DNA of 53,428 nucleotides from Bacteroidota bacterium (GTDB lineage Bacteria > Bacteroidota > Bacteroidia > Flavobacteriales_D > Crocinitomicaceae): the NCBI GenBank assembly GCA_024280295.1, contig JAJRQK010000052.1:1-53428 (forward strand). Direction: 5' to 3'. Each line of letters starts with the position of its first letter. Position 1 is the stretch's first letter. Below the pieces are notes generated by a model. It searched no databases. It was not told where the DNA came from and was given only the letters and a program-made list of their open reading frames with translations. Position numbers and translations under genes: made by a program. This document shows, piece by piece, positions 40,871 through 53,057 of the stretch.

Positions 40871-41701
40871 GTGACATTCACAAATATCTTAATTTTAGTT
40901 GTAGTTTTCAGTCACCTAATTATTCAGTTGGTCCTTATTTTTGATTTAACTATGAAACGCAAAGAAACACACTTGTATGAGAACGGTAAACTCCCAGAAC
41001 CGACAACTAAAGTTGAGGGAAGATTTTTTGAGACACACATGACTGAAGCCAGATCATTAAACCGCTTGAGAAAACCGATGTATTCTAAATTAACAAATGG
41101 CAAATCTGAGAAAGTATCAAGAACATTCATTCGCAATCAAAATTTGTCAATACCGATTGCGAAATTCATGGACAGGAGAGCTCTGAAATTTCAAAAATTA
41201 GGGATTCCAATTATTGAATTAGACATGGCATCAATGCACGAAATTGATAACTTTTCGGAATCATTTACTTCAGAAGTACAATCACTTCAGCTTTATAAAC
41301 CGGTAAGTGCTAGAAGAATTCGTAAAAATTTAAAAAAGGGATATCTAATTGGAGGATTTAAGGAAGTTTCGACTCGCGCGCAGATAGAAATTCAAAAGAT
41401 AAGTGAATTTCACACCTACCACGCTATGATCCGTCACATGCTTGAATCGATTGTCCGAATGGTAAATATGGCAGACATCTACATCGATCTTGCCGAACAA
41501 AAAGGAGTTAAGTCACCTCGTCGTCTATCCCGACAGTTATTAAGTCTACATATAAATGCATTGCCTGGATGCATGAAATTAGATAAGTTATCCGCACCGA
41601 TTCAAGCGAGTGGAATACCAATTATTCATCAAGATGTGCCATCAATTTCGCCCTATCCAGCAAATATAAGTCACTATTTGAATGATTCATGTCCAAAATA
41701 A
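40871..41701 (+). CDS. Unknown protein with N-terminal membrane anchor
   Basis: 276 residues from a GTG. The first 28 residues form a hydrophobic anchor (ILILVVVFSHLIIQLVLIF), then a basic, mostly helical body with RFFETHMTEARSLNRL, RRIRKNLKKGYLIGG, an HTYHAMIRHMLESIV segment and AEQKGVKSPRRLSRQLLSLH. Several histidines recur (THMT, HEID, HTYH, IRHM), but no known motif is met. It overlaps the next gene by 13 nt, so it is tied to the sterol-desaturase-like gene. No family recognised. Confidence 0.65.
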   Translation: MTFTNILILVVVFSHLIIQLVLIFDLTMKRKETHLYENGKLPEPTTKVEGRFFETHMTEARSLNRLRKPMYSKLTNGKSEKVSRTFIRNQNLSIPIAKFMDRRALKFQKLGIPIIELDMASMHEIDNFSESFTSEVQSLQLYKPVSARRIRKNLKKGYLIGGFKEVSTRAQIEIQKISEFHTYHAMIRHMLESIVRMVNMADIYIDLAEQKGVKSPRRLSRQLLSLHINALPGCMKLDKLSAPIQASGIPIIHQDVPSISPYPANISHYLNDSCPK

Positions 41702-42021
41702 GATTCTATAGAACGCTATATTACCCTCTTGTAATTAGTATTACGATGGCAGTTGGACTGGCTAGCACGTATTGGTTACCAATCGAATTGTACACTCTAA
41801 TTCCAATTGTTTTAACCTTTATTTTCTTGTTAACATTCATTTTTGGTGAAAAACAAGCGGCATATAAAAAAGAATGGAGTGGAAAAAAAGAAGATTCAAA
41901 AGCCGATTTTTTGCAAACTTTTCTGATCCTTCCACTTGCCTCGAAAATTGCCGAAATTATTGTTCCAATTGCATTGTTCTATCCAATTGAAAAAATTTCT
42001 ACGCATCTTGCGTTTAATTAA
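41689..42021 (+). CDS. N-terminal fragment of a frameshifted sterol desaturase/fatty-acid hydroxylase
   Basis: 110 codons with three hydrophobic segments and a basic loop (KEWSGKKEDSKADFLQTF), typical of the membrane-embedded N-terminus of this family, ending early after HLAFN. One base removed near TTTAATTAAT at 42013-42021 restores the frame into the next fragment, giving an intact protein of about 295 residues. The start ATG lies within the end of the preceding gene (13-nt overlap). Confidence 0.7.
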   Translation: MSKIRFYRTLYYPLVISITMAVGLASTYWLPIELYTLIPIVLTFIFLLTFIFGEKQAAYKKEWSGKKEDSKADFLQTFLILPLASKIAEIIVPIALFYPIEKISTHLAFN

Positions 42022-42574
42022 TCTTGTTGCGGAATATGGAATTATTACTCAATTTATTTTAGCCTTACTTGCTTGTGAACTTTCCTTCTATTGGTTCCAC
42101 AGAGCAGTGCATCATTTGCCGTTATTATGGAGGTTTCACTCGTTGCACCACGGCGCTGATAGAGTTTATTGGTTGAATGCAGGACGATTTCATTTTCTTG
42201 AATCATTTTTTACTTCGATAAGCTACTTCATTCCATTAATATTCTTTGCGCCAATGTCAGAAATCACAATTCTAATAATATCCCTCTCCAGTATTACCGG
42301 ATTTTTAGAACATGTCAATATTGATATAAAAGCGGGGTGGCTAAATTACATTTTCAATACCTGTCAACTACATCGGTGGCATCACTCTAAAGTCGTACTT
42401 GAATCGAATAAGAACTACGGCAAAATACTCATTATATGGGATTTGATCTTTGGATCTTATTTTCTCCCCAAAGATCGTGAAGTGGAAGAGGTTGGGATTA
42501 TTAGAGAAGACGTTCCTATTGATTTCAAGAGCCAACAGGCATATCCGTTTAGAAAGAAGTCTAGCGAGGTATAA
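41936..42574 (+). CDS. Catalytic fragment of a sterol desaturase/fatty-acid hydroxylase family protein
   Basis: The apparent TTG start lies in the previous fragment; meaningful sequence starts around 42010 with NLVAEYGIITQ. All three histidine boxes for the di-iron centre are present: FHRAVHH, FHSLHHGADRVYW and LHRWHHSK, with membrane helices between. Enzymes of the family hydroxylate or desaturate sterols, carotenoids, fatty acids or aldehydes. The C-terminus overlaps the convergent cytochrome P450 gene by 14 nt. Its position beside the lipid/isoprenoid cluster suggests that it modifies that product; substrate unknown. Confidence 0.8.
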   Translation: MPRKLPKLLFQLHCSIQLKKFLRILRLINLVAEYGIITQFILALLACELSFYWFHRAVHHLPLLWRFHSLHHGADRVYWLNAGRFHFLESFFTSISYFIPLIFFAPMSEITILIISLSSITGFLEHVNIDIKAGWLNYIFNTCQLHRWHHSKVVLESNKNYGKILIIWDLIFGSYFLPKDREVEEVGIIREDVPIDFKSQQAYPFRKKSSEV

Positions 42575-43886
42575 TGCTGATTTGCACTGGTTTTTTGGTC
42601 GCTAAAGTGATATTCGGTGACATTTCGGGGATAGCACCTGTGTAAGATATCTCGAACTTTGAAACGATTGTAGAAAGTAGTATGATCATCTCCATGAGTG
42701 CTAAATTTCTACCTACACAGAGGCGTGGTCCACCACCAAAAGGAATAAACGTGTACGGAAGTTGAGCTTTCGCTTTCAATGGATGAAAACGCTCTGGATT
42801 AAATTCAGTTGGATTCACCCAATAATCAACTCTTCTATGCAATGTTAGTGGACTTATTCTTACATGAGACCCCGCGGGCAAGTCATATTCACCTAACTTA
42901 TCGTCTTCGATATTCATTCGCCCCATGTGCCAAGCAGCTGGATATAATCTCATTGTTTCATTAATTACCTGAGTCGTGTATGTCAATTCGTGAAGGTCTT
43001 CATACTGGATTTCTCTACCTTCAAGTTTCTTTACTTCTTCAAAGATTTTTTGCTGGATATCAGGTCGAATTCCTATACTATACAATGCCCATGACATGGT
43101 ATTAGAGGTTGTATCATGCCCCGCAAGAAATATCGTCATCACCTCATCTCTCAATTCTTCATCACTCAACCCATTGCTTGATCCTTCTGTATAATTCATC
43201 AATCGAGAAAGCGTATCGCTTTCAGTGTCTTCTGAATTTCGCTTGCTATCAATGATACCATAAATCAATTCGTCCAATGCTGATTTTGCCTTTTTGAATT
43301 TTTTATTCTTAGTTGTGGGCCAGTTCGCAGGAACAATGAATGGATTCCTTAAAGCACGCTCACCTGCATATTCTAGGACGTAATTGATGTTCTTCCAGAG
43401 ATTCGTTCCAAAATCAATTCGAGTGCTAAAGAGCGTTTCACCAATGATTGCCAATGTGATTTTAGCCATTTCTTGCGACGCATTGATTTCTAAATCGGGT
43501 TTTTGTGCCCAATCATTCATCAATCGATTTGCATTTGTGGTTACAGCTGAAACATAGGATCGGATTGCCGTACTATTAAAAGCCGATTGACTAAACTTCC
43601 GACTTCGAACCCAAGAATCACCATCACTTGTCAACATTCCATTACCGACGATAAGTCGCATTGGTTTATAGCCAGTACTTTTGACGTAGTTTTTATGATT
43701 ATCCTGTAGAACGTGCTTGATCAAATCGGGATGATTGATGAAGTAGATTTTTTTACTGAATATTTTAAAAAGCATGATATCCCCAAACTCCTCCGACGAA
43801 TTGAGCATGAAATTAATCGGATCATTTTTAAACTGCTTTAAGTGTCCTATAATTGGTGATCCTTTCGGTTGTGGTGGTAATTTCAT
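42561..43886 (-). CDS. Cytochrome P450
   Basis: 441 residues with all landmarks: I-helix AGHDTTSN, K-helix ETMR, the heme-binding loop PFGGGPRLCVGRNLAL with the axial cysteine at residue 390, and the meander sequence NPERFHPLK. It resembles bacterial P450s of the CYP4/CYP102-like type that hydroxylate fatty acids or terpenes, but the specificity is not readable. It is the last gene of the eight-gene operon, overlapping the acyl-adenylating gene by 4 nt (ATGA). No ferredoxin or reductase is encoded nearby, so electrons must come from elsewhere. Confidence 0.95.
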   Translation of the reverse strand: MKLPPQPKGSPIIGHLKQFKNDPINFMLNSSEEFGDIMLFKIFSKKIYFINHPDLIKHVLQDNHKNYVKSTGYKPMRLIVGNGMLTSDGDSWVRSRKFSQSAFNSTAIRSYVSAVTTNANRLMNDWAQKPDLEINASQEMAKITLAIIGETLFSTRIDFGTNLWKNINYVLEYAGERALRNPFIVPANWPTTKNKKFKKAKSALDELIYGIIDSKRNSEDTESDTLSRLMNYTEGSSNGLSDEELRDEVMTIFLAGHDTTSNTMSWALYSIGIRPDIQQKIFEEVKKLEGREIQYEDLHELTYTTQVINETMRLYPAAWHMGRMNIEDDKLGEYDLPAGSHVRISPLTLHRRVDYWVNPTEFNPERFHPLKAKAQLPYTFIPFGGGPRLCVGRNLALMEMIILLSTIVSKFEISYTGAIPEMSPNITLATKKPVQISIIPR

Positions 43887-45400
43887 GCGAGTTCTTCTGA
43901 TAAGAGTTTACTTTTGTGACGTGCATCCCTAGGTAATGGTTTGCTCCTTGTAATTACTGCGTCGCACGGATAACCTTTGGAGATTATATGTAATTTAATC
44001 TGATCGGAATTAACATTTTGGACAGATCCGACATACAGAATAAATTTGCCTCTGTTATTTTTTATATATCCAAGATCTGTTAATCCAAATTCCATTTCAA
44101 TTTCTTGTTCAATTGGGTACGGGTACACTTTACTGCCGTTGTCATCCAGGATCCTGTGATCGCGTCCAACCAAGTAAAGATGTCCATTCTTGAAATAGCC
44201 AATATCACCCGTACGATGCCAAATCAAACCACCGTCATCAACAATTTTAATTGCAATAAATGCTTTCTGATTCTTATAGTAGTTCTTATTCACATGATTT
44301 CCCGTAACAACAATTTCACCTATGGAATTATCAGCTAATTGGTTCGATTGAAAGTAGGCAGTATCGATGGGACCAATTATAGATTTAACAATTCGTACGC
44401 TTACATCTATAACCGGTATTCCAACATATACACCATCTAAAGGATGTGCTGTGCTATCAAGAATATTTTGGAAAGTACTCAAACAGATCGGTTCTGCTTC
44501 AGTTGATCCATAAATTGCCTCAAAATTGAGTTCAGGATGATCTTGAACGCATGTTTTAATGAGCTGATTTGATATAGGAGCACCTCCAGTAACGATATCT
44601 TGGATAGCTCCATGGCCATTTGACTTCAACCCGTCAATAATCTTTTTTAGCAGAGAAGGTGAAACGAGAATTCTGGTTACATTTGATGCTAGGATATGTT
44701 TAGACATTTCCTCACTATTTGCTTGATGAATTTTCATTAAGTTAATCTGAGGAATAACGACCGTATTTCCAACTGAAAAATCTGCAAGGCCAACGATGGG
44801 GAAGTTTGTAAAATCAACAGATGGACCGTCATTCGTACCTTTTAGGTGTTGCTCCAATGTACTCGCTTGCGCATATAAGAATGAAAACGTTCGGTTTGCA
44901 CCTTTAGGTTGTCCACTTGTACCACTTGTGAATGTAATCAGAGCATTGTCATCATCTGAAACATCCACAATGATCCAATCCTCAACTGTTGGTGTGATAG
45001 AATCTAGTTTCCATTTTCTTAACTTCCAGGTTGAAGGGAGCAGCCACGAAAAGCGTGCAATTTTCTTTGTGACAATTAATAAATCTGGTCGAACTTGATT
45101 AATTACTGAACTCATTTTTTTACCCTTCATCCACGGGTCAAGAAAAATGGCAGTTGCACCTAATGAAAATAGTGCTTGAAGCAAAGCATATAAGTCCATG
45201 GACATCGGAACGAAGACTAATACTTTCGATCCCTTTTTCACTCCTTTTCGCACTAACTCAGCGCGCGCTCCAGTAATATGACGCTTATATTCATCATAAG
45301 TATAGGACCTCCCATTCTTATCAATGATTGCCACCCGATTTGGATACTTCTCCAGTGAGTTTAGGATACCATTAAAAGCTATGTGTGGATTGCTATTCAA
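43883..45400 (-). CDS. Acyl-adenylating enzyme (ANL superfamily), OleC-like
   Basis: 505 residues from a TTG start that overlaps the GNAT gene by 8 nt. ANL motifs: TFTSGTSGQPKGANRT (AMP-binding), YGSTEAEP (A5), HRTGDIGYF (A7) and GRDHRI (A8). The C-terminal end PLPRDARHKSKLLSEELA resembles the PVDVRHNAKI-type end of OleC, the enzyme that forms beta-lactones from beta-hydroxy acids in long-chain olefin synthesis. OleA, OleB and OleD are missing here. An ordinary acyl-CoA synthetase or fatty-acyl-AMP ligase is the alternative. In this operon it may activate an acid made by the P450 or supply an acyl group to the GNAT protein. Confidence 0.85.
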   Translation of the reverse strand: MNSNPHIAFNGILNSLEKYPNRVAIIDKNGRSYTYDEYKRHITGARAELVRKGVKKGSKVLVFVPMSMDLYALLQALFSLGATAIFLDPWMKGKKMSSVINQVRPDLLIVTKKIARFSWLLPSTWKLRKWKLDSITPTVEDWIIVDVSDDDNALITFTSGTSGQPKGANRTFSFLYAQASTLEQHLKGTNDGPSVDFTNFPIVGLADFSVGNTVVIPQINLMKIHQANSEEMSKHILASNVTRILVSPSLLKKIIDGLKSNGHGAIQDIVTGGAPISNQLIKTCVQDHPELNFEAIYGSTEAEPICLSTFQNILDSTAHPLDGVYVGIPVIDVSVRIVKSIIGPIDTAYFQSNQLADNSIGEIVVTGNHVNKNYYKNQKAFIAIKIVDDGGLIWHRTGDIGYFKNGHLYLVGRDHRILDDNGSKVYPYPIEQEIEMEFGLTDLGYIKNNRGKFILYVGSVQNVNSDQIKLHIISKGYPCDAVITRSKPLPRDARHKSKLLSEELA

Positions 45401-46427
45401 CTTGTAAGGACATTAGTGTGTAATTTCTTAGGATATCAGATCCGTATCTTGACTTTGTTAATTTGGCAGTAGTATTCCCAGAATACATGAGTGAGAAGAT
45501 CACATCAGTATATCCCAACTCTTTAGCGAGTGGTTTCATATAGTTGACCACCATTTTCATTATTTTCTTATTTCTCCAATCAGGGTGTGTGGCAATCGTT
45601 TTAAAGAATAGTTTGTTGTTTTTCGAATTCGGATTTATTTCTCCGTAAACATCTTTATATGATATAAATGTAGCCACCGGTCGTTGATTCTTATCGACAA
45701 CGACAAAGGAGCAATCATAGGATGCAACTGCGTTCAAATTTCTTGTTAGAAGATTATAATGATCAAATGAAATTTCGTGAAAAAGGGGATTATCACTGAA
45801 ACTTTTCATGTAAAACTCAAAATAATTAAAATTCTGATCTTCCGTTAGGTTTTTTGGTAATGGCCGTATTTTCAAATTCATTTCAGCTAAAAACACACTT
45901 AAATCTCTCTCATCAATGTCTTGATTCAATTCACTAACTGGTAAAGTAGTTTCATACATCACATCATTGTTAAAGCCAACATTTCCCCATTGTTTCAAGT
46001 AATAAGATGGTTGATATGGTTCACCTGCAAATAGCGGCTTTGAAGCATCCAAATTAAATCTGTACGAACTCCATGTTGAGCCATTAATTGGACCAATGAT
46101 CTTCTTGCAGCCTTGTCGTTGAAGCCAAAGGATTGCCTGTTTTAGTAGCTCTTCACTCAATTCCAGACTATCATCGCACTCAAACCACCCTAGAATCCCA
46201 AGTTGATGATTTTTTTCGTGATAAAATGCCGCCACTCTTCCCTTATACTGTTCATTTTCAACTAAAAAAAAATGAACAGTATCGGAAGTTTCATTAAAAT
46301 AATGATGAATTTCTTTGGGTTCTGACCAAGAGTTATTATCGCTGTTTTTTGATCGAATCTCAACTCCATAATCATAAAAAAGTGACAAATCACTCTGTGC
46401 AGTTAATTTGATTGTTTTTATACTCAT
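45393..46427 (-). CDS. GNAT-fold acyltransferase-like protein
   Basis: 344 residues. The N-terminal half contains RVAAFYHEK, LGWFECDDS and GPINGSTWSSYRFN, which recurs in a family of double-GNAT proteins annotated only as N-acetyltransferase. The second half has a GNAT-type acyl-CoA site with LFFKTIATHPDWRNKKIMKM. It overlaps the kinase-like gene by 4 nt and the adenylating gene by 8 nt. An N-acylation step on an amino group, possibly that delivered by the BtaA-like enzyme, is a reasonable inference, not a demonstrated one. Confidence 0.8.
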   Translation of the reverse strand: MSIKTIKLTAQSDLSLFYDYGVEIRSKNSDNNSWSEPKEIHHYFNETSDTVHFFLVENEQYKGRVAAFYHEKNHQLGILGWFECDDSLELSEELLKQAILWLQRQGCKKIIGPINGSTWSSYRFNLDASKPLFAGEPYQPSYYLKQWGNVGFNNDVMYETTLPVSELNQDIDERDLSVFLAEMNLKIRPLPKNLTEDQNFNYFEFYMKSFSDNPLFHEISFDHYNLLTRNLNAVASYDCSFVVVDKNQRPVATFISYKDVYGEINPNSKNNKLFFKTIATHPDWRNKKIMKMVVNYMKPLAKELGYTDVIFSLMYSGNTTAKLTKSRYGSDILRNYTLMSLQVE

Positions 46428-47167
46428 CCTAGAATAGTATTTCGAAATAAAAACAGGACAACAATCGTGGTCAATGGAATCAGCAAGTTATCCAAACCCT
46501 TTTGAGAAATTGCCTCAACAATAGTCGTCGAAATTGCAATCACAAAAGCAACGAGAAGTATAGATGATCGATTTATATCCAAGTTATAGATGAAAGAAGC
46601 ACTAATTATAAATGATGAGACGAGGAATCCAAGCGAACCAATAAGTGTTTTTGTAGTTCCCATTATCTTGTATTTCCCCAATCGCCATTTTTTTCCAACC
46701 AAAGCAGCAGCTGGATCTGATACCGACAAAATTAATATTGGAAGATAATAATAAATGACAGCACCATTATACCATGAAGAGCCATTCACTTGATGGGACA
46801 GTAAATCATTTCCATCAAAATCACTTAATCCTATTAGGGAGAATGCCCAGTATGTTACGTAGATACTCAAAGGAAATAAAAACGACCCTGCTGTTTTTCT
46901 GTTAACTGAATTTATTGATTTTAATACTCCCCATTTCATACTAAAGATTAACAGTAAGAAAAAGGCAATTGTAAGAATTAAAACAGACCAATGAGAGCCA
47001 AGAAATGAAGGAAATGTGAGGCAGATTAATCCAGTGCCTAAATGGACAACCTTGCGCGTAATTTCTACGGGGAATTTCGCTAAATGAAATAACAATTCAC
47101 CTAGTCCAAATAGAACCAGAAATGCGCCACCGTATATTCCAAGTGATATGATTTCGTTCACACTCAC
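46424..47167 (-). CDS. Dolichol/phytol-kinase or phosphatidate-cytidylyltransferase-like membrane protein
   Basis: About 247 residues with seven helices. I start at the GTG at 47167, which forms a GTGA overlap with the upstream stop; the longer frame from 47233 runs into the upstream gene. Family motifs are EITRKVVHLGTGL near the N-terminus and SVSDPAAALVGKKWRLGKYK followed by TKTLIGS, which resemble the nucleotide-binding region of the Dgk1/Sec59/VTE5 group: CTP-dependent kinases of diacylglycerol, dolichol or phytol. In this operon a prenol or a prenylated glycerol is the likely substrate. Confidence 0.85.
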   Translation of the reverse strand: MSVNEIISLGIYGGAFLVLFGLGELLFHLAKFPVEITRKVVHLGTGLICLTFPSFLGSHWSVLILTIAFFLLLIFSMKWGVLKSINSVNRKTAGSFLFPLSIYVTYWAFSLIGLSDFDGNDLLSHQVNGSSWYNGAVIYYYLPILILSVSDPAAALVGKKWRLGKYKIMGTTKTLIGSLGFLVSSFIISASFIYNLDINRSSILLVAFVIAISTTIVEAISQKGLDNLLIPLTTIVVLFLFRNTILG

Positions 47168-48255
47168 ACTTTTGAATTTACGATAAAAGCACGATAAAAA
47201 TAACCGAGATCTGATGCACTCAATATCTTGCAATTGTCTAAATCAAAATTAAGCTTCTTAGGGAGAACATTTGCTAAATTTCGTTCGATAAGAAGATTCC
47301 AATAGGCAATTTTAGCTTGGGGAGCACTATTCTCAATAATTTGATTTCCAACTATGCTAAATAAATCCTCATCCATATATTCAAAGATATCAGAAAGATT
47401 AAAATGCGTACAATTTGGATAGCACTCCAATGCTGAATCCAATAAACCATGGTGAAGTTCTACACGATCGAGGTTTCGTTTTACATTCGAAAAATTTTCT
47501 TGTCGAACATAATGTGGAAGATCAGCGTTAAAACGGTTGTTGAGAATATAGTTTAGGAAATAATTTTCCTGAGCCATCTTGGTTCGAAGATGCCGTTTAG
47601 CTCGCCTCAAATTCATTTCTGCCACACTGCCTTCCACATGTTTCAAAAACTCAGGATCTCTCCCTTTATCTCCAAGCGTTTTTTCGCCAAAATAATCTTT
47701 GTACAAGATCTCCCATTCAGCAGAATTCCATATATCATCATGAAATTTTAATTGCTCTTCTTCAGACTTTTCAGCTAGTAGCTGATCAACTAAACCCTGG
47801 GAGTGAACTGTATGTAAAAAATTCATCTTAAAGGTCTGAAAATACTGCTCAAATTTCCCTGCATGTATCACTCCAAGGGAAATAGCATCAATATTCTGGT
47901 CCCAATAAAATTTGCACTTTTCGGATAATTTCTCGCGAATAATCGCGTACGTATCCAATCGACTTGAAGCCTCACGGATTCCTGCGAAACCCATGTATTC
48001 CTCTCTATTTAATTGACGAATGGCCTCCATTTTGAGTTCAACAAGATGAAGCTGAACGAGGCTAATATCGAAAGCAATGACCTTCCTCACTCCAGTTGAG
48101 GCAAGTGAGAAACAATTATCTCCAGCTGAGGCAATCGACATAATTGTGGAATTTTGATCTACATTTAATCCTTTGAGCAGGACATCAGCATCCTCCCAGC
48201 AATTAGAGTAGCGAATAATCTCAAAATCAACTTTTCCCAATTGTTTTTCACTCAT
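47164..48255 (-). CDS. DUF3419 / BtaA-like aminocarboxypropyltransferase
   Basis: 363 residues with the family's SAM site: IRYSNCWEDADVLL, SIASAGDNCFSLAST and AFDISLVQLHLVELKMEAI. In betaine-lipid synthesis BtaA moves the 3-amino-3-carboxypropyl group of S-adenosylmethionine onto the free hydroxyl of diacylglycerol, forming a homoserine ether. The BtaB N-methyltransferase that would complete the betaine is not encoded in the window. It overlaps the gene upstream by 8 nt and the one downstream by 4 nt. The acceptor here may be a prenyl-linked lipid rather than diacylglycerol. Confidence 0.9.
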   Translation of the reverse strand: MSEKQLGKVDFEIIRYSNCWEDADVLLKGLNVDQNSTIMSIASAGDNCFSLASTGVRKVIAFDISLVQLHLVELKMEAIRQLNREEYMGFAGIREASSRLDTYAIIREKLSEKCKFYWDQNIDAISLGVIHAGKFEQYFQTFKMNFLHTVHSQGLVDQLLAEKSEEEQLKFHDDIWNSAEWEILYKDYFGEKTLGDKGRDPEFLKHVEGSVAEMNLRRAKRHLRTKMAQENYFLNYILNNRFNADLPHYVRQENFSNVKRNLDRVELHHGLLDSALECYPNCTHFNLSDIFEYMDEDLFSIVGNQIIENSAPQAKIAYWNLLIERNLANVLPKKLNFDLDNCKILSASDLGYFYRAFIVNSKV

Positions 48256-50860
48256 CGTTAATGATTTTTATCTCCCCTGTACTGCCGTCCATTTCTATCA
48301 AATCTCCAGTCCTTAATCTTTTCAGTAATCCAGTCACCCCAACGATACACGGAATCCCCATTTCTCTTGAAACAATTGCAGAATGACTCAATAAGCTTCC
48401 TCGTTCTACAATAATGGCTGAAGCACTCGGAAATAATGTTACCCAACCAGGATCTGTACTCGATGTCACCAAAATATCACCATTTAGACTATCAATTTCA
48501 CTAGGATGGCCTACAATTCTAACCTTTGCTTTCACTAGTCCAGGACAGCAACCAAGACCAGATAAGTTACCGTCCACCAGATTCTCCTTTGAACTATCAA
48601 AGAAGTCATTTCCGTAATTTACGGCATCAAATGTTTCGAAGCGTTCTGCCGGCAATTCCATTTTCTCGAAGTTCTTGTACTCTATTTTACGAGTATAAGT
48701 TAGAGCAATTAGGTCTTTATCTACAGATGTTCCTTGAATAAAAGCGAAAATTTCTACCTTAGTCAAGAAGAAAATGTCACGATGAGATGTCAGCGCACCA
48801 TTTTTCTCAAACTGTTTTCCAATCTGGGTAAATATTTCACGACTCAGTCCAAAAACACGAGTTCTCTCATACCTCAAATTCTCACGGTTAGAAACAAAAT
48901 AGCGTGTCTTCTTTAGCACTTTATTCAGTTTTCGACGTCTCCAAAACTTGCCTTTTAATGCTTTTGAAATTTCTGCTTCAGCTGCATTTCTAAGGTCGAC
49001 ATCTACAGTTGAAGACGTGGAAGATTTGGTTATATTTTGCACAACAAATGATTTGATAATGGCAATAAACAAAGACGGGTCTTGTGTATATGAGATCGTT
49101 TCAAGTTTTAATTCTCCCACACAACGGTCACCGAAGTCATCAATGTAACGATCAATTTCAGCCTTTATCTTAACGTGTTCGGATGCTTGAAGTTTCACCC
49201 AAATGGGAGAAGCATCGTTGTTGGTGAAAAGTTGTTCCAATACAGAATCCTTTTTGATTATTGTCGCAAGCTCAATCGTTCGATGAATCGGTTCCACTGA
49301 TATAATATCTTTACTACCGCACAATAGGTCATTTTGTATGTTTTTATTCTCCCCTATATCGTATTTATCAATCGTCTTTTGGAGTTTTCCAAAATAGTAC
49401 ATTGCGAAACTATCATTGACCAATGGAGCTTCCCACTTTGGCGTCAACTCGGCATCCAAATCTATCCAGGTTTGCATTAATTCGAACGCACTTAAGTCCG
49501 AAAGATTCATACTTTTAATTCGCTTTACACTTCGTTCTACATCAACTTGAAACTCTCTTGTTTCTCGTTTAATAGAAGACAATTTGCCGATGATTTTAAT
49601 GATCATCCAAGACGTACGCATGAAGGCTGAAAACTTGGTGAATCTCCCCTGTTTGGGTAAGTCAAATCGCTCTTTCACCCCCATCATATTTTCCATGAAA
49701 CGGGCATTGAGTTTATATCCTGGAAATAACGCAAGAACTTTATACCACGATAGTAAATTGTAATATACACGGCCATTAATAAGTCCAAGCATGTTGCCAA
49801 AAGTGTCCTCATTTTCTTTTAAGCTCGCAGCACTGACACCCATTATTGAAGCAATTTGTAGGTACACACTTTTATAGGCTTCAAGAATGTAAGAAAACGT
49901 TAATGGAGTTGTAACCCCTGGATAAGATTCGATGATATTACTATTATCCCAAATAATTCTATTCTCAGTTGAGTGTGCTATTTTTTTATGGATAACTGCA
50001 GTTATCGGTCGCGTTTGAAGTAAATAAATAATTCCATTTTTAACTGCAAATTCAATATCCTGAGGTTCTCCAAGTTGTTTTTCTAGCGCGTCTAAAATTG
50101 AACTCAACTTAGTAATTTCTTCCTTAGTTAGTGAAGCAATCTTTCTTCTATTTTCGGCAACATCCACAAAAGTAATTTCACCCGATCTTCCCCGATTGGC
50201 TTTGCTTACCTTATCAACCAAGAGTTCTTCAATTTTCTCTTCGTTTAGCGTAAATGTATCCGCGTTCAGTTCACCAGAGACCAATCCTTCTCCAACTCCA
50301 TAGACAGAACAGATGACTTTAGATCCACGTTCGCCCGTATTTGGGTTAATTCCAAAGCCTACACCTGATACATCTGGGTCGATCATTTTTTGGATAATCA
50401 CACCAATTCCAAAAGTTGGTTTAAGGTTATTTGCTTTTTGATAATTAGCAACTCTATCTGAAAAATTTGATTTCCAAATTTCTTTAACGAATTTCGGAAT
50501 GTCCAAAAAGTTAACATAGAGATATGTTTCAAATTGACCAGCAAATGAGAATGATTGTCCATCTTCTTGAACAGCCGAAGACCTTACCGCAAATAATTGG
50601 CTTTTAGATTCGGTGAATGATTCTCGAAGCGTGTCTAAGAAATCATCGTCAAACTCATAATCATCGATAACATTACAAATTTCTTTTTGATCGAATCTAG
50701 CTTTTGCATCTCCATTCAAAAGCGTCTCAAGAGCATTTTGATCAATGACCACCCAATCAGGAACATTAAGCCCAATCTTCTTCAAACGGTATAAGTTCAA
50801 TCCCTTACCTCCGATTTGATCAATTGTTAAGCTCTGTATGTCAGAAGAGTAGATTCTCAT
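48248..50860 (-). CDS. PEP-utilizing-type phosphotransferase, rifampin-phosphotransferase-like architecture
   Basis: 871 residues from the ATG at 50860, which overlaps the UbiA stop by 1 nt. N-terminal ATP-grasp (PPDK_N) with GGKGLNLYRLKKIGLNVP, FAVRSSAVQEDGQSFSFAGQ and LLQTRPIT; a large variable middle region; a C-terminal swinging domain with the phospho-accepting histidine in RGSLLSHSAIVSREMG. The PEP/pyruvate TIM barrel of true PEP synthase is absent. Rifampin phosphotransferase has the same three-part plan: ATP domain, substrate domain, His domain. I infer that it phosphorylates a pathway-specific hydroxyl group, but the substrate is unknown. Confidence 0.88.
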   Translation of the reverse strand: MRIYSSDIQSLTIDQIGGKGLNLYRLKKIGLNVPDWVVIDQNALETLLNGDAKARFDQKEICNVIDDYEFDDDFLDTLRESFTESKSQLFAVRSSAVQEDGQSFSFAGQFETYLYVNFLDIPKFVKEIWKSNFSDRVANYQKANNLKPTFGIGVIIQKMIDPDVSGVGFGINPNTGERGSKVICSVYGVGEGLVSGELNADTFTLNEEKIEELLVDKVSKANRGRSGEITFVDVAENRRKIASLTKEEITKLSSILDALEKQLGEPQDIEFAVKNGIIYLLQTRPITAVIHKKIAHSTENRIIWDNSNIIESYPGVTTPLTFSYILEAYKSVYLQIASIMGVSAASLKENEDTFGNMLGLINGRVYYNLLSWYKVLALFPGYKLNARFMENMMGVKERFDLPKQGRFTKFSAFMRTSWMIIKIIGKLSSIKRETREFQVDVERSVKRIKSMNLSDLSAFELMQTWIDLDAELTPKWEAPLVNDSFAMYYFGKLQKTIDKYDIGENKNIQNDLLCGSKDIISVEPIHRTIELATIIKKDSVLEQLFTNNDASPIWVKLQASEHVKIKAEIDRYIDDFGDRCVGELKLETISYTQDPSLFIAIIKSFVVQNITKSSTSSTVDVDLRNAAEAEISKALKGKFWRRRKLNKVLKKTRYFVSNRENLRYERTRVFGLSREIFTQIGKQFEKNGALTSHRDIFFLTKVEIFAFIQGTSVDKDLIALTYTRKIEYKNFEKMELPAERFETFDAVNYGNDFFDSSKENLVDGNLSGLGCCPGLVKAKVRIVGHPSEIDSLNGDILVTSSTDPGWVTLFPSASAIIVERGSLLSHSAIVSREMGIPCIVGVTGLLKRLRTGDLIEMDGSTGEIKIINDE

Positions 50861-51792
50861 TAATTTATAAGGTTCATTAACATAGGGATTCCGCCTAGCG
50901 ATAAGTACATTCCAACTGTCCAAACTGCTGAAGTTACTTCGACTAACTTTGCGGATTTTTTATTCGGTTTTCTAGCAAAATAGAGTGCTGGAATCAATGC
51001 CAAAAGTGCTAGACTTCCAAGTATAATAAATCCAGGCATTCCATATCCTGCATAGAAAGCAGCAGTAATAGCAAAAGTCAATGTTGTGAGCAATAATCCT
51101 GACCAAACCAGCATAGATCCTGTGATTCCCCACATACCAGTATAGGAGACAACACCATCCTCTTCGTCATCTTTGGCTTTCAGTTTCCGACCAACTTCAA
51201 CTAATAAACCGTTCAAATAGGAGACAACAAAAAAGAAAACAAGTCCAAAATGTGGTGAACTGCCTTCCAGTACCCAATCCAATCCACTTGAATAGATATC
51301 AAGAAGTGGGAAAATAAACATGTGAGATGTGATGTACAGAATTTGTCGAGGCTTGAGGTACTTTGGTACAAAAAATTCAACCCCCATCAAGCACAAATAC
51401 ACAAGAGCGATAATGTAAAGGTAGAGCATATTCAATTGAAAATAAGCAATGACCGCAATTTGTGCGATGCCTATCAGAATTCCCATATTACGGAGTTCTT
51501 TTAACGACATTACCCCTCTAGGGACTGGAAGATAAGATCGAAATTTAGCATCCTCTTCTTTGTCCTTGAACTCATCAAAAACGCGTACAAGAAAAAACAG
51601 CGTAAACGTTGCGAAGCATCCAATAAAGTAAGTTTGCCATTCGACAAAACCATCAACTCCTCGACAAATTCGAGAATATGAAATAGCAGAAAAAGTAAAA
51701 ACAGCTACGGCGATTAAATTAACAACAATCGGAAACCGTTCTTTCTGATAAATCCAAAATCGCTTAAAAAAGGGAAGTGCTTTTTCGTCCAT
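50860..51792 (-). CDS. UbiA-family prenyltransferase
   Basis: 310 residues from the ATG at 51792 (MDEKALPFF), 2 nt after the HMG-CoA reductase stop; a longer frame to 51888 lies inside that gene. About eight membrane helices. Both aspartate-rich motifs that hold the prenyl diphosphate are present: RVFDEFKDKEED in the first cytoplasmic loop and LKAKDDEEDGVVSYTG in the second. UbiA enzymes attach prenyl chains to aromatic rings, heme, or glycerol phosphate (archaeal lipids). No aromatic-ring pathway gene is near, so a glycerol-type or other acceptor is worth considering. Confidence 0.9.
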   Translation of the reverse strand: MDEKALPFFKRFWIYQKERFPIVVNLIAVAVFTFSAISYSRICRGVDGFVEWQTYFIGCFATFTLFFLVRVFDEFKDKEEDAKFRSYLPVPRGVMSLKELRNMGILIGIAQIAVIAYFQLNMLYLYIIALVYLCLMGVEFFVPKYLKPRQILYITSHMFIFPLLDIYSSGLDWVLEGSSPHFGLVFFFVVSYLNGLLVEVGRKLKAKDDEEDGVVSYTGMWGITGSMLVWSGLLLTTLTFAITAAFYAGYGMPGFIILGSLALLALIPALYFARKPNKKSAKLVEVTSAVWTVGMYLSLGGIPMLMNLIN

Positions 51793-51794
51793 GG

Positions 51795-53057
51795 TTATCT
51801 TCCTAAACGTTGGTGTGCAGAAGCAAAATGTCCAGATGACATAGCCGCGATTATGGAAATTTCTCCTGCAAGGCAAAGTCCAGCGCAAATTTCTGCTAGC
51901 TTCACTGCTTTTCCTTCACCATAGCAATCCATCATTTCTAGGCAATCACGCTGAGTTGGCCATGAGGTTCCACCACCAACTGTACCAACGACTAAATTTG
52001 GTAAAGAAACTGAGCAGTACAAATCTCCGTCCTGCGTTATTTCCATTCTAGTAATTCCGACAGAAGCTTCAGAAACACATGCAGCATCTTGACCACAAGC
52101 AATAAACATTGCGGCTAATCCATTCGCATAATGTCCTTGTGCACCAATGGCTCCGCATTTTACGGCTCCCATGAACGAAGTCTGCCAATATTGAAACATA
52201 AGCTCAGGACTAGATTTTAATATTTTGTTAATGATTTCTTTTTTGAGGACAATTTCAGCGACTACTTTTTTACCTCTCACAGAGCTAAATGAAGTTGAAG
52301 TTGCTTTTTTATCTCCAGAAAAATTGCTTTCAATAAACCAAATATCAGGCTTAATTGGTGTATGTTTCACGATATGCTCACAAATTGCTTGAGTTGCTAT
52401 GGTTACCATATTTTGGCCAGCAGCATCACCTGTTGTAAACTCAAAAGACAGAATAACCTGATTGCCTTCGATGTTAAAATCCATGTCATTCAACTTTGCA
52501 TAATTACTTGTCTTGGCAACTACCTTCTGAAATTTATCCTTCTCCTTCATAATCCAAAGAATAAATTCACCAACACCAAGAACAGTTTCAAACTTAAAAA
52601 GTGGGCATCGTTGAATTCCTTCCACAAGGCAAACAGAGCGAATTGCACCCGATAATCGACAAGCCCTTGCTCCTCTAGCATAAGAAGCAACAAGTGCACC
52701 TTCAGTTGTTGCGAGTGGAACATAATATCCACCTGAAGCAGCAACTCCATTTACGACTAACGGCCCCAAAACTCCAGTAGGAACTTGAGTCATCCCAATA
52801 AAATTCTCAATATTACCCTTCAAATTACCAAAGACCTCAATCTCCTCTTCCCCAGATAAATAATCAAATTTCTTGTCCATGGCATCCTCAATAAACTCTA
52901 AGCGCTGATCAAATCCTTCTTTCGTATGTGGATTCCTGCTTGGTACAGTTTGCAAACCTTCCGTCTTTGAAAGCTCAAAGGTTGCTATGTGTTTGATTGA
53001 ACCATCTAAGTCAAATTTTTGGACAGCCTTGTTTAATTTCGGTTTTGTAATGCTCAT
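51795..53057 (-). CDS. HMG-CoA reductase, class I
   Basis: 420 residues; catalyses reduction of HMG-CoA to mevalonate, the committing step of the mevalonate route to isoprenoids. Motifs: NFIGMTQVPTGVLGPL, the catalytic glutamate in TTEGALVAS, the lysine in SGDKKATSTSF, a GDAAGQNM cofactor motif, the aspartate in CGQDAACVSEAS, GTVGGGTSWP and the C-terminal histidine in SGHFASAHQRLGR. The order matches class I enzymes. It is the first gene of the eight-gene operon; its start is 292 nt from an IS1595-type transposase start. It may be the cell's only reductase or a second, pathway-specific copy. Confidence 0.93.
   Translation of the reverse strand: MSITKPKLNKAVQKFDLDGSIKHIATFELSKTEGLQTVPSRNPHTKEGFDQRLEFIEDAMDKKFDYLSGEEEIEVFGNLKGNIENFIGMTQVPTGVLGPLVVNGVAASGGYYVPLATTEGALVASYARGARACRLSGAIRSVCLVEGIQRCPLFKFETVLGVGEFILWIMKEKDKFQKVVAKTSNYAKLNDMDFNIEGNQVILSFEFTTGDAAGQNMVTIATQAICEHIVKHTPIKPDIWFIESNFSGDKKATSTSFSSVRGKKVVAEIVLKKEIINKILKSSPELMFQYWQTSFMGAVKCGAIGAQGHYANGLAAMFIACGQDAACVSEASVGITRMEITQDGDLYCSVSLPNLVVGTVGGGTSWPTQRDCLEMMDCYGEGKAVKLAEICAGLCLAGEISIIAAMSSGHFASAHQRLGR

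Follow-up and report, generated by a model that had tools for sequence, protein, structure and literature searches.

Our analysis points to an operon dedicated to the synthesis of an undescribed polar lipid in a bacterium of the family Crocinitomicaceae (Bacteroidota). The operon lies on the minus strand of contig JAJRQK010000052.1 of assembly GCA_024280295.1, whose 53,428 nucleotides (nt) we call the window; it is one contig (C64) of a 3.46-Mb assembly that is 98.8% complete. Seven core genes are kept together in most of the relatives that we compared, namely those for a 3-hydroxy-3-methylglutaryl-CoA (HMG-CoA) reductase-like (HMGR-like) protein, a UbiA prenyltransferase, a His-phosphotransferase, a DUF3419/BtaA-like protein, a CTP prenol-kinase-like protein, a tandem GNAT and an OleC-like ligase. 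We lean modestly towards the reading that their product is an amino-group-bearing lipid, made through a branch that would turn an acid into an alcohol and then a phosphate, through prenyl transfer and through the addition of an aminocarboxypropyl group that is probably N-acylated.

A preliminary description of this DNA had reported eight minus-strand genes with one 2-nt gap and otherwise overlaps of 1-8 nt. Our recomputed junctions agree, as the eight genes span 42561-53057 and meet with a 2-nt gap followed by overlaps (-2, +1, +8, +4, +4, +8 and +4 nt). None of the eight has an internal stop; the start codon was assumed to be ATG, with GTG for the CTP kinase and TTG for the ligase. The domains named in that description were likewise recovered by Pfam (HMGR, UbiA, PPDK_N plus PEP-utilizers, DUF3419, GNAT, AMP-binding and P450, and FA_hydroxylase on the plus strand). 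The minus-strand genes are, from the highest coordinate down:

51795..53057, minus strand: HMGR-like reductase, 420 aa, class I fold (HMG-CoA_red PF00368, 1.3e-113)
50860..51792, minus strand: UbiA-family prenyltransferase, 310 aa (PF01040, 5.8e-14 to 7.5e-14, 52.4 bits against a cut-off of 34.2)
48248..50860, minus strand: ATP-grasp plus swivelling-His phosphotransferase, 870 aa (PPDK_N 8.1e-55, PEP-utilizers 2e-24)
47164..48255, minus strand: DUF3419/BtaA-like protein, predicted S-adenosylmethionine (SAM)-dependent 3-amino-3-carboxypropyl transferase, 363 aa (PF11899, 2.1e-55)
46424..47167, minus strand: membrane protein resembling CTP-dependent prenol/lipid-alcohol kinases, 247 aa (RKxxH clamp, 8 long helices)
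45393..46427, minus strand: tandem-GNAT acyltransferase, 344 aa (PF00583, 5.8e-7)
43883..45400, minus strand: OleC-like adenylate-forming acid ligase, 505 aa (AMP-binding PF00501, 4.3e-38)
42561..43886, minus strand: cytochrome P450, lineage-specific last gene, 441 aa (PF00067, 2.7e-95)

A seven-gene unit and its distribution

The DUF3419 protein is present in 19 of the 150 family genomes, the window genome included, and the order of the core genes is kept in all 18 other family neighbourhoods as far as the contigs reach, with inserted genes at the loci numbered L032-L035, L037 and L042. The seven genes share one contig in 13 of the 18 neighbourhoods (one ligase is clipped by the contig end). 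The other five are broken by contig ends; in three of these the remaining genes stand at the end of a second contig.

A wider set of named loci comprises the best 80 of at least 496 confirmed relatives, obtained by scanning 84,980 species genomes with the DUF3419 alignment; organism labels are those of the sequence records. We counted only the 46 well-flanked loci, in which the DUF3419 gene is preceded by more than 7.5 kb and followed by more than 5.5 kb, and excluded the 34 with too little flank. All seven core genes were found by tblastn in 42 of the 46, the exceptions being L067, L093, L101 and L108. The family sample shares contigs with eleven of the 80 loci, of which eight are counted in the 46; without the shared contigs all seven genes are found in 35 of 38 loci. 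This co-occurrence is far beyond chance. The preliminary description had claimed that the genes form one biosynthetic unit and had named a neighbourhood search as the check; the search, now run, did not refute the claim, which stands for the seven-gene set.

A UbiA profile searched against 394 other genomes of the phylum gave 8 further matches, 7 of which are accompanied by all seven genes. One genus among these 7 has the genes in altered order, and the Portibacter locus of the named set is one of the 7. We also compared the pairwise distance matrices of the seven proteins in a mirror-tree analysis (39 of 88 loci, Portibacter counted once). They correlate with r of 0.68-0.94, and for each of the 21 protein pairs 0 of 999 permutations reached the observed r.

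The carriers are mostly Bacteroidota and include Dyadobacter, Rhabdobacter, Sphingobacterium, Parapedobacter, Microscilla, Portibacter and Saprospiraceae. All seven genes were also found by tblastn in loci of metagenome-assembled genomes labelled Planctomycetaceae (L125), Kiritimatiellales (L107), Chthoniobacterales (L140) and Trueperaceae (L141), with the gene order altered in L107 and L125. Five core genes occur on short contigs labelled Chitinispirillaceae (L118), Melainabacteria (L119) and Gammaproteobacteria (L135), and only two in Planctomycetota L102. A UbiA search of plasmids returned short Streptomyces matches and one operon, on a Roseinatronobacter plasmid that bears the gene set with its HMGR clipped by the record end. 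The seven-gene unit is sporadic but coherent, and because its distribution is patchy the operon has probably spread in part between lineages.

The HMGR-like protein and the mevalonate pathway

The cluster HMGRs keep the catalytic apparatus of class I HMG-CoA reductase but differ from it at the substrate carboxylate. We aligned 66 distinct copies (duplicates removed, copies from the phylum sample included, open reading frames (ORFs) of 330 aa or less omitted) with PDB entries 6hr7 and 8ecg, which we take to be the Methanothermococcus and Arabidopsis HMGRs, and give sites in human numbering. The HMG-CoA_red fold, the catalytic Glu559, Lys691 and Asp767, and also Arg590, Asp690, Lys692 and Asn755 are kept in 66 of 66, as in the class I enzymes. 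Two positions are replaced in all 66: Ser684 by Glu in 65 and by Asp in 1, and Lys735 by Ser in 59, Ala in 4 and Gly in 3. The window copy has Ser or Thr at 735 depending on gap placement, and never Lys. According to PMC9500038, a contact from Ser684 and a salt bridge from Lys735 hold the HMG carboxylate. Both residues are retained in our control, the HMGR of an annotated Streptomyces mevalonate cluster, whose gene has fni on one side and that for HMG-CoA synthase on the other.

The simplest reading is that Glu684, paired with Arg590 and Lys692, occupies the place of the former substrate carboxylate, and because it now sits there we infer that the substrate lacks the distal carboxylate of HMG. 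Alternatively, the substrate may bear an amine at that position. His866 was considered as a marker of the cluster HMGRs and rejected: it is kept in 45 of the 66, but is Glu in the Streptomyces control and Gln in 8ecg. The window protein, the only HMGR match in its genome, scores under the TIGR00533 cut-off (314.8 against 441.8 bits).

The same altered pocket occurs in HMGRs fused to a second domain at six family loci (L044, L046, L047, L048, L051 and L057). An APH-type kinase domain was confirmed in the fused HMGR of L046, and the five others are of like length. An APH-type domain is also fused to the HMGR of Streptomyces NBC_01435 (L172:7560-10334), which has the same pocket changes, so the pairing of reductase and kinase recurs. 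Several of the fused-HMGR loci lie near a second PPDK_N gene, a CarS-like gene just under the cut-off or a fatty acid desaturase, and look like a second lipid-like locus. Four solitary HMGRs of Vibrio and Photobacterium (L167-L170) have Asp at 684 and no Lys735, and their neighbouring genes are not conserved; judged by these residues, the mevalonate annotation of such genes may be wrong. The Alteromonas HMGR (L171) has Ala at 684 and no Lys735, and that of Sinorhizobium (L173) is poorly aligned there.

The preliminary description had the HMGR feeding isoprenoids, so that mevalonate would boost the isopentenyl diphosphate available for the UbiA donor in an isoprenoid-boosted aminolipid pathway. 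The intact fold and full set of catalytic residues would suit such a role, but the genomes give it little room. HMGR was found in 43 of the 150 family genomes. We tested 30 family genomes, 20 with operon evidence and 10 without, for the rest of the route. IspH, the marker of the methylerythritol phosphate (MEP) pathway, is present in 30 of 30, and the C-terminal model of HMG-CoA synthase matches in 0 of 30. An absent HMG-CoA synthase is not decisive alone, because leucine breakdown can also supply HMG-CoA. MVD-like_N matches in 7 of the 30, three of them operon carriers in which the gene belongs to a separate sterol-type cluster, and MVD has no match in 17 of the 20 carriers, the window genome included. 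Of the 42 named genomes that carry all or most of the operon, 18 have no MVD-like match and 24 have one; 13 of these matches are weak (about 22-31 bits, ten of them at or over the 27-bit cut-off), and the 11 strong ones (72-129 bits) count in favour of mevalonate. The operon is tied to the mevalonate pathway neither way. These counts, together with a carboxylate site that is rewritten in every cluster copy and kept by the HMGR of a real mevalonate cluster, disfavour mevalonate supply for isoprenoids, and we regard that version as unlikely. The HMGR-like protein of the operon probably does not feed isoprenoids, as its pocket suggests.

The sterol-type cluster of one of these three carriers, at L059:5814-16727, encodes by Pfam a squalene synthase, a squalene epoxidase, a second-type HMGR, MVD, a GHMP kinase, a prenyl synthase-like protein and a squalene/oxidosqualene cyclase; at the tested sites its HMGR could be aligned with neither of the two class I references. 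Gene lengths and MVD/HMGR matches indicate a like cluster at L045, L050 and L058, and HMG-CoA synthase is unmatched in the genomes with this type of cluster.

The other core enzymes and their neighbours

The operon UbiA is one of five UbiA matches in the window genome. D73, E74, D77 and D81 are invariant in alignment A2 (19 sequences) and form a DExxDxxxD pattern, presumably the first Asp-rich motif of UbiA; E199, R202, K203 and E210 are invariant where the canonical second Asp motif is expected. The DUF3419 protein conserves S43, G45, D46, N47 and D63 in alignment A1 (19 sequences), which we take to be its SAM site. Profiles of these two proteins had no PDB matches at E 0.01. A Rhizobium DUF3419 protein has 39 of the 105 near-invariant residues in common with the operon family at ~20% identity, and its gene adjoins a methyltransferase gene, the two being taken here as a BtaA-BtaB pair. 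The operon thus resembles BtaA/BtaB betaine-lipid synthesis in its aminocarboxypropyl transferase, with WED and SxGxN stretches common to both, but differs in the C-terminal stretch of that protein, in its six other core enzymes and in having no methyltransferase partner: Pfam and NCBIfam place no methyltransferase family, of the BtaB N-methyltransferase type or other, among the eight operon genes.

In the phosphotransferase only PPDK_N and the mobile PEP-utilizers domain score above cut-off, and the phosphoenolpyruvate-binding C-terminal domain of phosphoenolpyruvate synthase and PPDK does not. Its nearest solved structure, 5hv2, is labelled phosphoenolpyruvate synthase and is in our assumption the Listeria rifampin phosphotransferase; the swivel His is conserved in the alignment. 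The enzyme shares this His and the domain architecture with rifampin phosphotransferase and PigC, but it falls below every curated cut-off shown and its middle (substrate-binding) domain has no family match.

Alignments A3, A4 and A5 hold 40, 41 and 28 sequences, which are the window protein and a redundancy-filtered choice from 79, 72 and 75 relatives, respectively. The CTP kinase has no Pfam match above cut-off, its profile has no PDB match at E 1, and a fold search gave no confident PDB match. R38, K39 and H42 of the RKxxH clamp are invariant in the 40 sequences of A3, and the AlphaFold2 model has eight long helices with a predicted local distance difference test score (pLDDT) of 90.7. We aligned the kinase by hhalign with L156, a fusion that carries a DUF92 domain and whose N-terminal half we assume on that basis to be VTE5-like. 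The probability was 89.6 with A3, and 98.6 with the fused homologues of the kinase (A6; E 1.4e-15, 326 columns). A study of a prenol kinase (PMC10849223) describes an RKxxH clamp and eight helices, and reports that yeast expressing the enzyme formed products in a CTP-dependent way that would fit farnesyl and geranylgeranyl phosphates. The operon kinase resembles VTE5/PolK and the VTE5-DUF92 fusions in the clamp, the helices and the collinear alignment of its fused homologues, but it stays below Pfam cut-offs and shares its operon with DUF3419, GNAT and ligase genes.

Most kinase copies seen in Bacteroidota consist of the kinase half only. Copies of 439-461 aa (L102, L107, L140, L141, L142, L157-L160 and L163) have an extra membrane domain of ~230 aa, possibly a second phosphorylation domain. 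A VTE6-like DUF92 was tried for this second kinase and rejected, as 2 of 5 fused C-terminal halves match it, at 16.6 and 9 bits (below cut-off), and DUF92 occurs in 1 of 47 genomes.

The AlphaFold2 model of the GNAT protein (pLDDT 87.4) matches the tandem GNAT 7q3a in Foldseek at E 1.5e-14, and N-acylation by this enzyme is plausible from the model. The best NCBIfam rows for the ligase are PRK09274 and olefin beta-lactone synthetase, both below cut-off (161.7 against 850 bits for the latter). D492, R494, H495, S497 and K498 are invariant in 28 sequences and make up a RDxRHxSKI-type end, which to our reading resembles the end of OleC. The likeness to OleC beta-lactone synthetase stops at this rank and this end: the score is far lower than the cut-off and the operon has no OleA, OleB or OleD gene.

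Other genes join the operon in some relatives. A CDP-alcohol phosphotransferase gene is added in 9 and a CTP_transf_1/CarS-like gene in 11 of the 46 well-flanked loci, and they lie inside the operon or at either end of it. Because these two join the operon, a phospholipid-like product is suggested; they are the main gene-content evidence for it. A gene of ~190 aa lies between GNAT and ligase in L082, L083, L087, L098, L103, L124 and L137, and its copy in L037 (on the same contig as L082) matches Polyketide_cyc2, a lipid-binding START-like fold. A polyprenyl synthetase gene adjoins the ligase in L040 and L084. We left it out of the operon, since the L040 contig (also numbered L104) has a primase in that string as well.

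L164 is a variant with homologues of PPDK, DUF3419, kinase, UbiA and GNAT, an added phosphatidylserine (PS)-decarboxylase-like gene and no ligase, in which an NAD_binding_4 gene takes the HMGR slot. This gene matches the Male sterility family PF07993 at 170.4 bits and the thioester reductase domain TIGR01746 at 114.6 bits, below the cut-off of 213; its best NCBIfam row, SDR oxidoreductase, is also below cut-off. Because a thioester-reductase-family gene stands there, the variant suggests that the HMGR slot may need a thioester reductase. Further variants of this type were looked for in 244 genomes of the class, where the two matches are L164's own genome and one weak partial match.

The P450 and the hydroxylase are local, lineage-specific additions and do not belong to the core. 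The P450 was found in 5 of the 18 family neighbourhoods and in 2 of the 46 wider named loci, being conserved only near the window, and the hydroxylase stands beside the operon in 3 of the 46. Conservation extends to seven genes rather than to eight or ten, and the oxidation steps that the preliminary description assigned to these two enzymes fall outside the conserved pathway. That description also had the operon converge on a two-gene unit ending in a di-iron hydroxylase. Facing plus-strand ORFs that include an FA_hydroxylase are indeed present, but the hydroxylase seems broken and is rarely kept with the operon. They are:

41936..42574, plus strand: OlsE-like FA_hydroxylase (PF04116, 5.8e-29), probably the 3' part of a broken gene that converges on the operon
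41689..42021, plus strand: 110-aa ORF, possibly the 5' part of the hydroxylase, overlapping the hydroxylase ORF in another frame; no family above cut-off
40871..41701, plus strand: 276-aa ORF, not counted with the operon genes; no Pfam or NCBIfam match

The OlsE profile covers only 112-287 of its 293 positions in this hydroxylase (170.4 against a cut-off of 475). The OlsE-like gene is apparently split over two frames in 41689-42574, by an assembly error or as a pseudogene.

Proposed pathway and its significance

We propose the following steps, whose numbers serve for listing and imply neither an order nor intermediate structures. (1) The OleC-like ligase would activate a carboxylic acid. (2) The HMGR-like enzyme would reduce the thioester to a primary alcohol, acting on a substrate without the distal carboxylate of HMG. 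(3) The CTP kinase would phosphorylate that alcohol, or a prenyl alcohol; where CTP_transf_1/CarS-like and CDP-alcohol transferase genes are present, the phosphate could be passed on to a CDP-lipid and then to a headgroup. (4) UbiA would attach a prenyl chain, by an ether or similar link, drawn in the window's family from the MEP pathway. (5) The DUF3419 protein would add a 3-amino-3-carboxypropyl group from SAM. (6) The tandem GNAT would acylate the amine of this group. (7) The swivelling-His enzyme might carry out a further ATP-driven phosphorylation, a step that is only tentatively placed. In the window's clade, the P450 may oxidise the product. A polar lipid with an aminocarboxypropyl-type group had already been put forward in the preliminary description, and the gene content fits it, through DUF3419 and, in some relatives, the CDP-alcohol and CTP_transf genes.

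Several points weigh against this proposal. The lipid product is predicted from the genes, their families and the residue changes in HMGR, and the ligase, UbiA, GNAT and His-phosphotransferase are placed by family with putative substrates. Foldseek of the kinase model gave weak best matches only (CdsA, probability 0.80, TM 0.35, E 0.24). The mirror-tree correlation is partly due to shared ancestry. The replacement in the HMGR slot was seen at L164 only, and this locus, with its PS-decarboxylase-like gene and no ligase, need not share the pathway. The 11 of the 42 named operon genomes with strong MVD matches may have a link to mevalonate.

A different arrangement would set five of the operon enzymes in one logical line. 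The DUF3419 group would go onto a prenyl ether, GNAT would acylate the amine, the ligase would activate the carboxylate, the HMGR-like enzyme would reduce it and the CTP kinase would phosphorylate the alcohol, giving an N-acyl homoserinol (ceramide-like) phospholipid without glycerol. We hold this scheme to be improbable. The ligase and the HMGR-like gene do accompany the rest in the same 42 of 46 loci, and kinase and CDP-transfer genes suit a phospholipid, but by NCBIfam rank the ligase is OleC-like and not an amino-acid adenylation enzyme, L164 keeps DUF3419 with a PS-decarboxylase-like gene and no ligase, and the scheme is a prediction from gene content.

We give a still smaller chance to an archaeal-type ether phospholipid, in which UbiA would prenylate the geranylgeranylglyceryl phosphate (GGGP) made by PcrB, with kinase, CarS and CDP-transfer steps and decoration by DUF3419 to follow. 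UbiA and the CarS-like (CTP_transf_1) and CDP-alcohol transferase genes of some relatives do resemble the archaeal set, but the operon adds HMGR-like, DUF3419, GNAT and ligase genes, and its UbiA scores weakly against GGGP geranylgeranyltransferase models. PcrB matches occur in 40 of 48 genomes: in 20 of 20 family genomes with the operon, but also in 17 of 21 family genomes without it, and in 3 of 7 outside the family. The window genome has its PcrB/GGGP synthase homologue at G000:C42:22536-23186, and most family members encode it regardless of the operon. PcrB is not required, since it was found in 0 of 4 genomes of genus g136, all full seven-gene carriers, and a route through PcrB was rejected on these counts. 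Finally, a betaine-lipid operon of the diacylglyceryl-trimethylhomoserine type with extra genes, to which the DUF3419/BtaA domain might point, is scarcely credible with no BtaB-type methyltransferase in the operon and so low an identity to the Rhizobium protein that adjoins one. The probability that remains we assign to products not imagined in any of these readings.

The preliminary description knew of no characterised pathway with this combination of genes. We likewise found no description of the operon among the matches listed in literature on DUF3419, operon gene combinations, Bacteroidetes lipids and orphan HMGRs, a search whose scope left out most subscription papers and bioRxiv preprints. 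We take the pathway to be new: every component belongs to a known superfamily, but none of the nearest families both passes all of its defining tests and explains most of the operon.

If the proposal is right, a lipid pathway carried by the cultured genera Dyadobacter, Sphingobacterium, Parapedobacter and Portibacter, and by loci that bear the labels of several other phyla, has gone unnoticed, and a set of bacterial genes now annotated as HMG-CoA reductase encode something other than a mevalonate-forming enzyme. A bolder possibility, which we rate as a long shot, is that the operon makes a membrane phospholipid of a new class, built on a backbone other than glycerol (e.g. N-acyl, O-prenyl homoserinol phosphate), with a branch of HMGR neofunctionalised as an alcohol-forming lipid reductase. 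In that case this HMGR branch, the kinase fusions and solitary Vibrio genes included, would be generally misannotated as a mevalonate enzyme.

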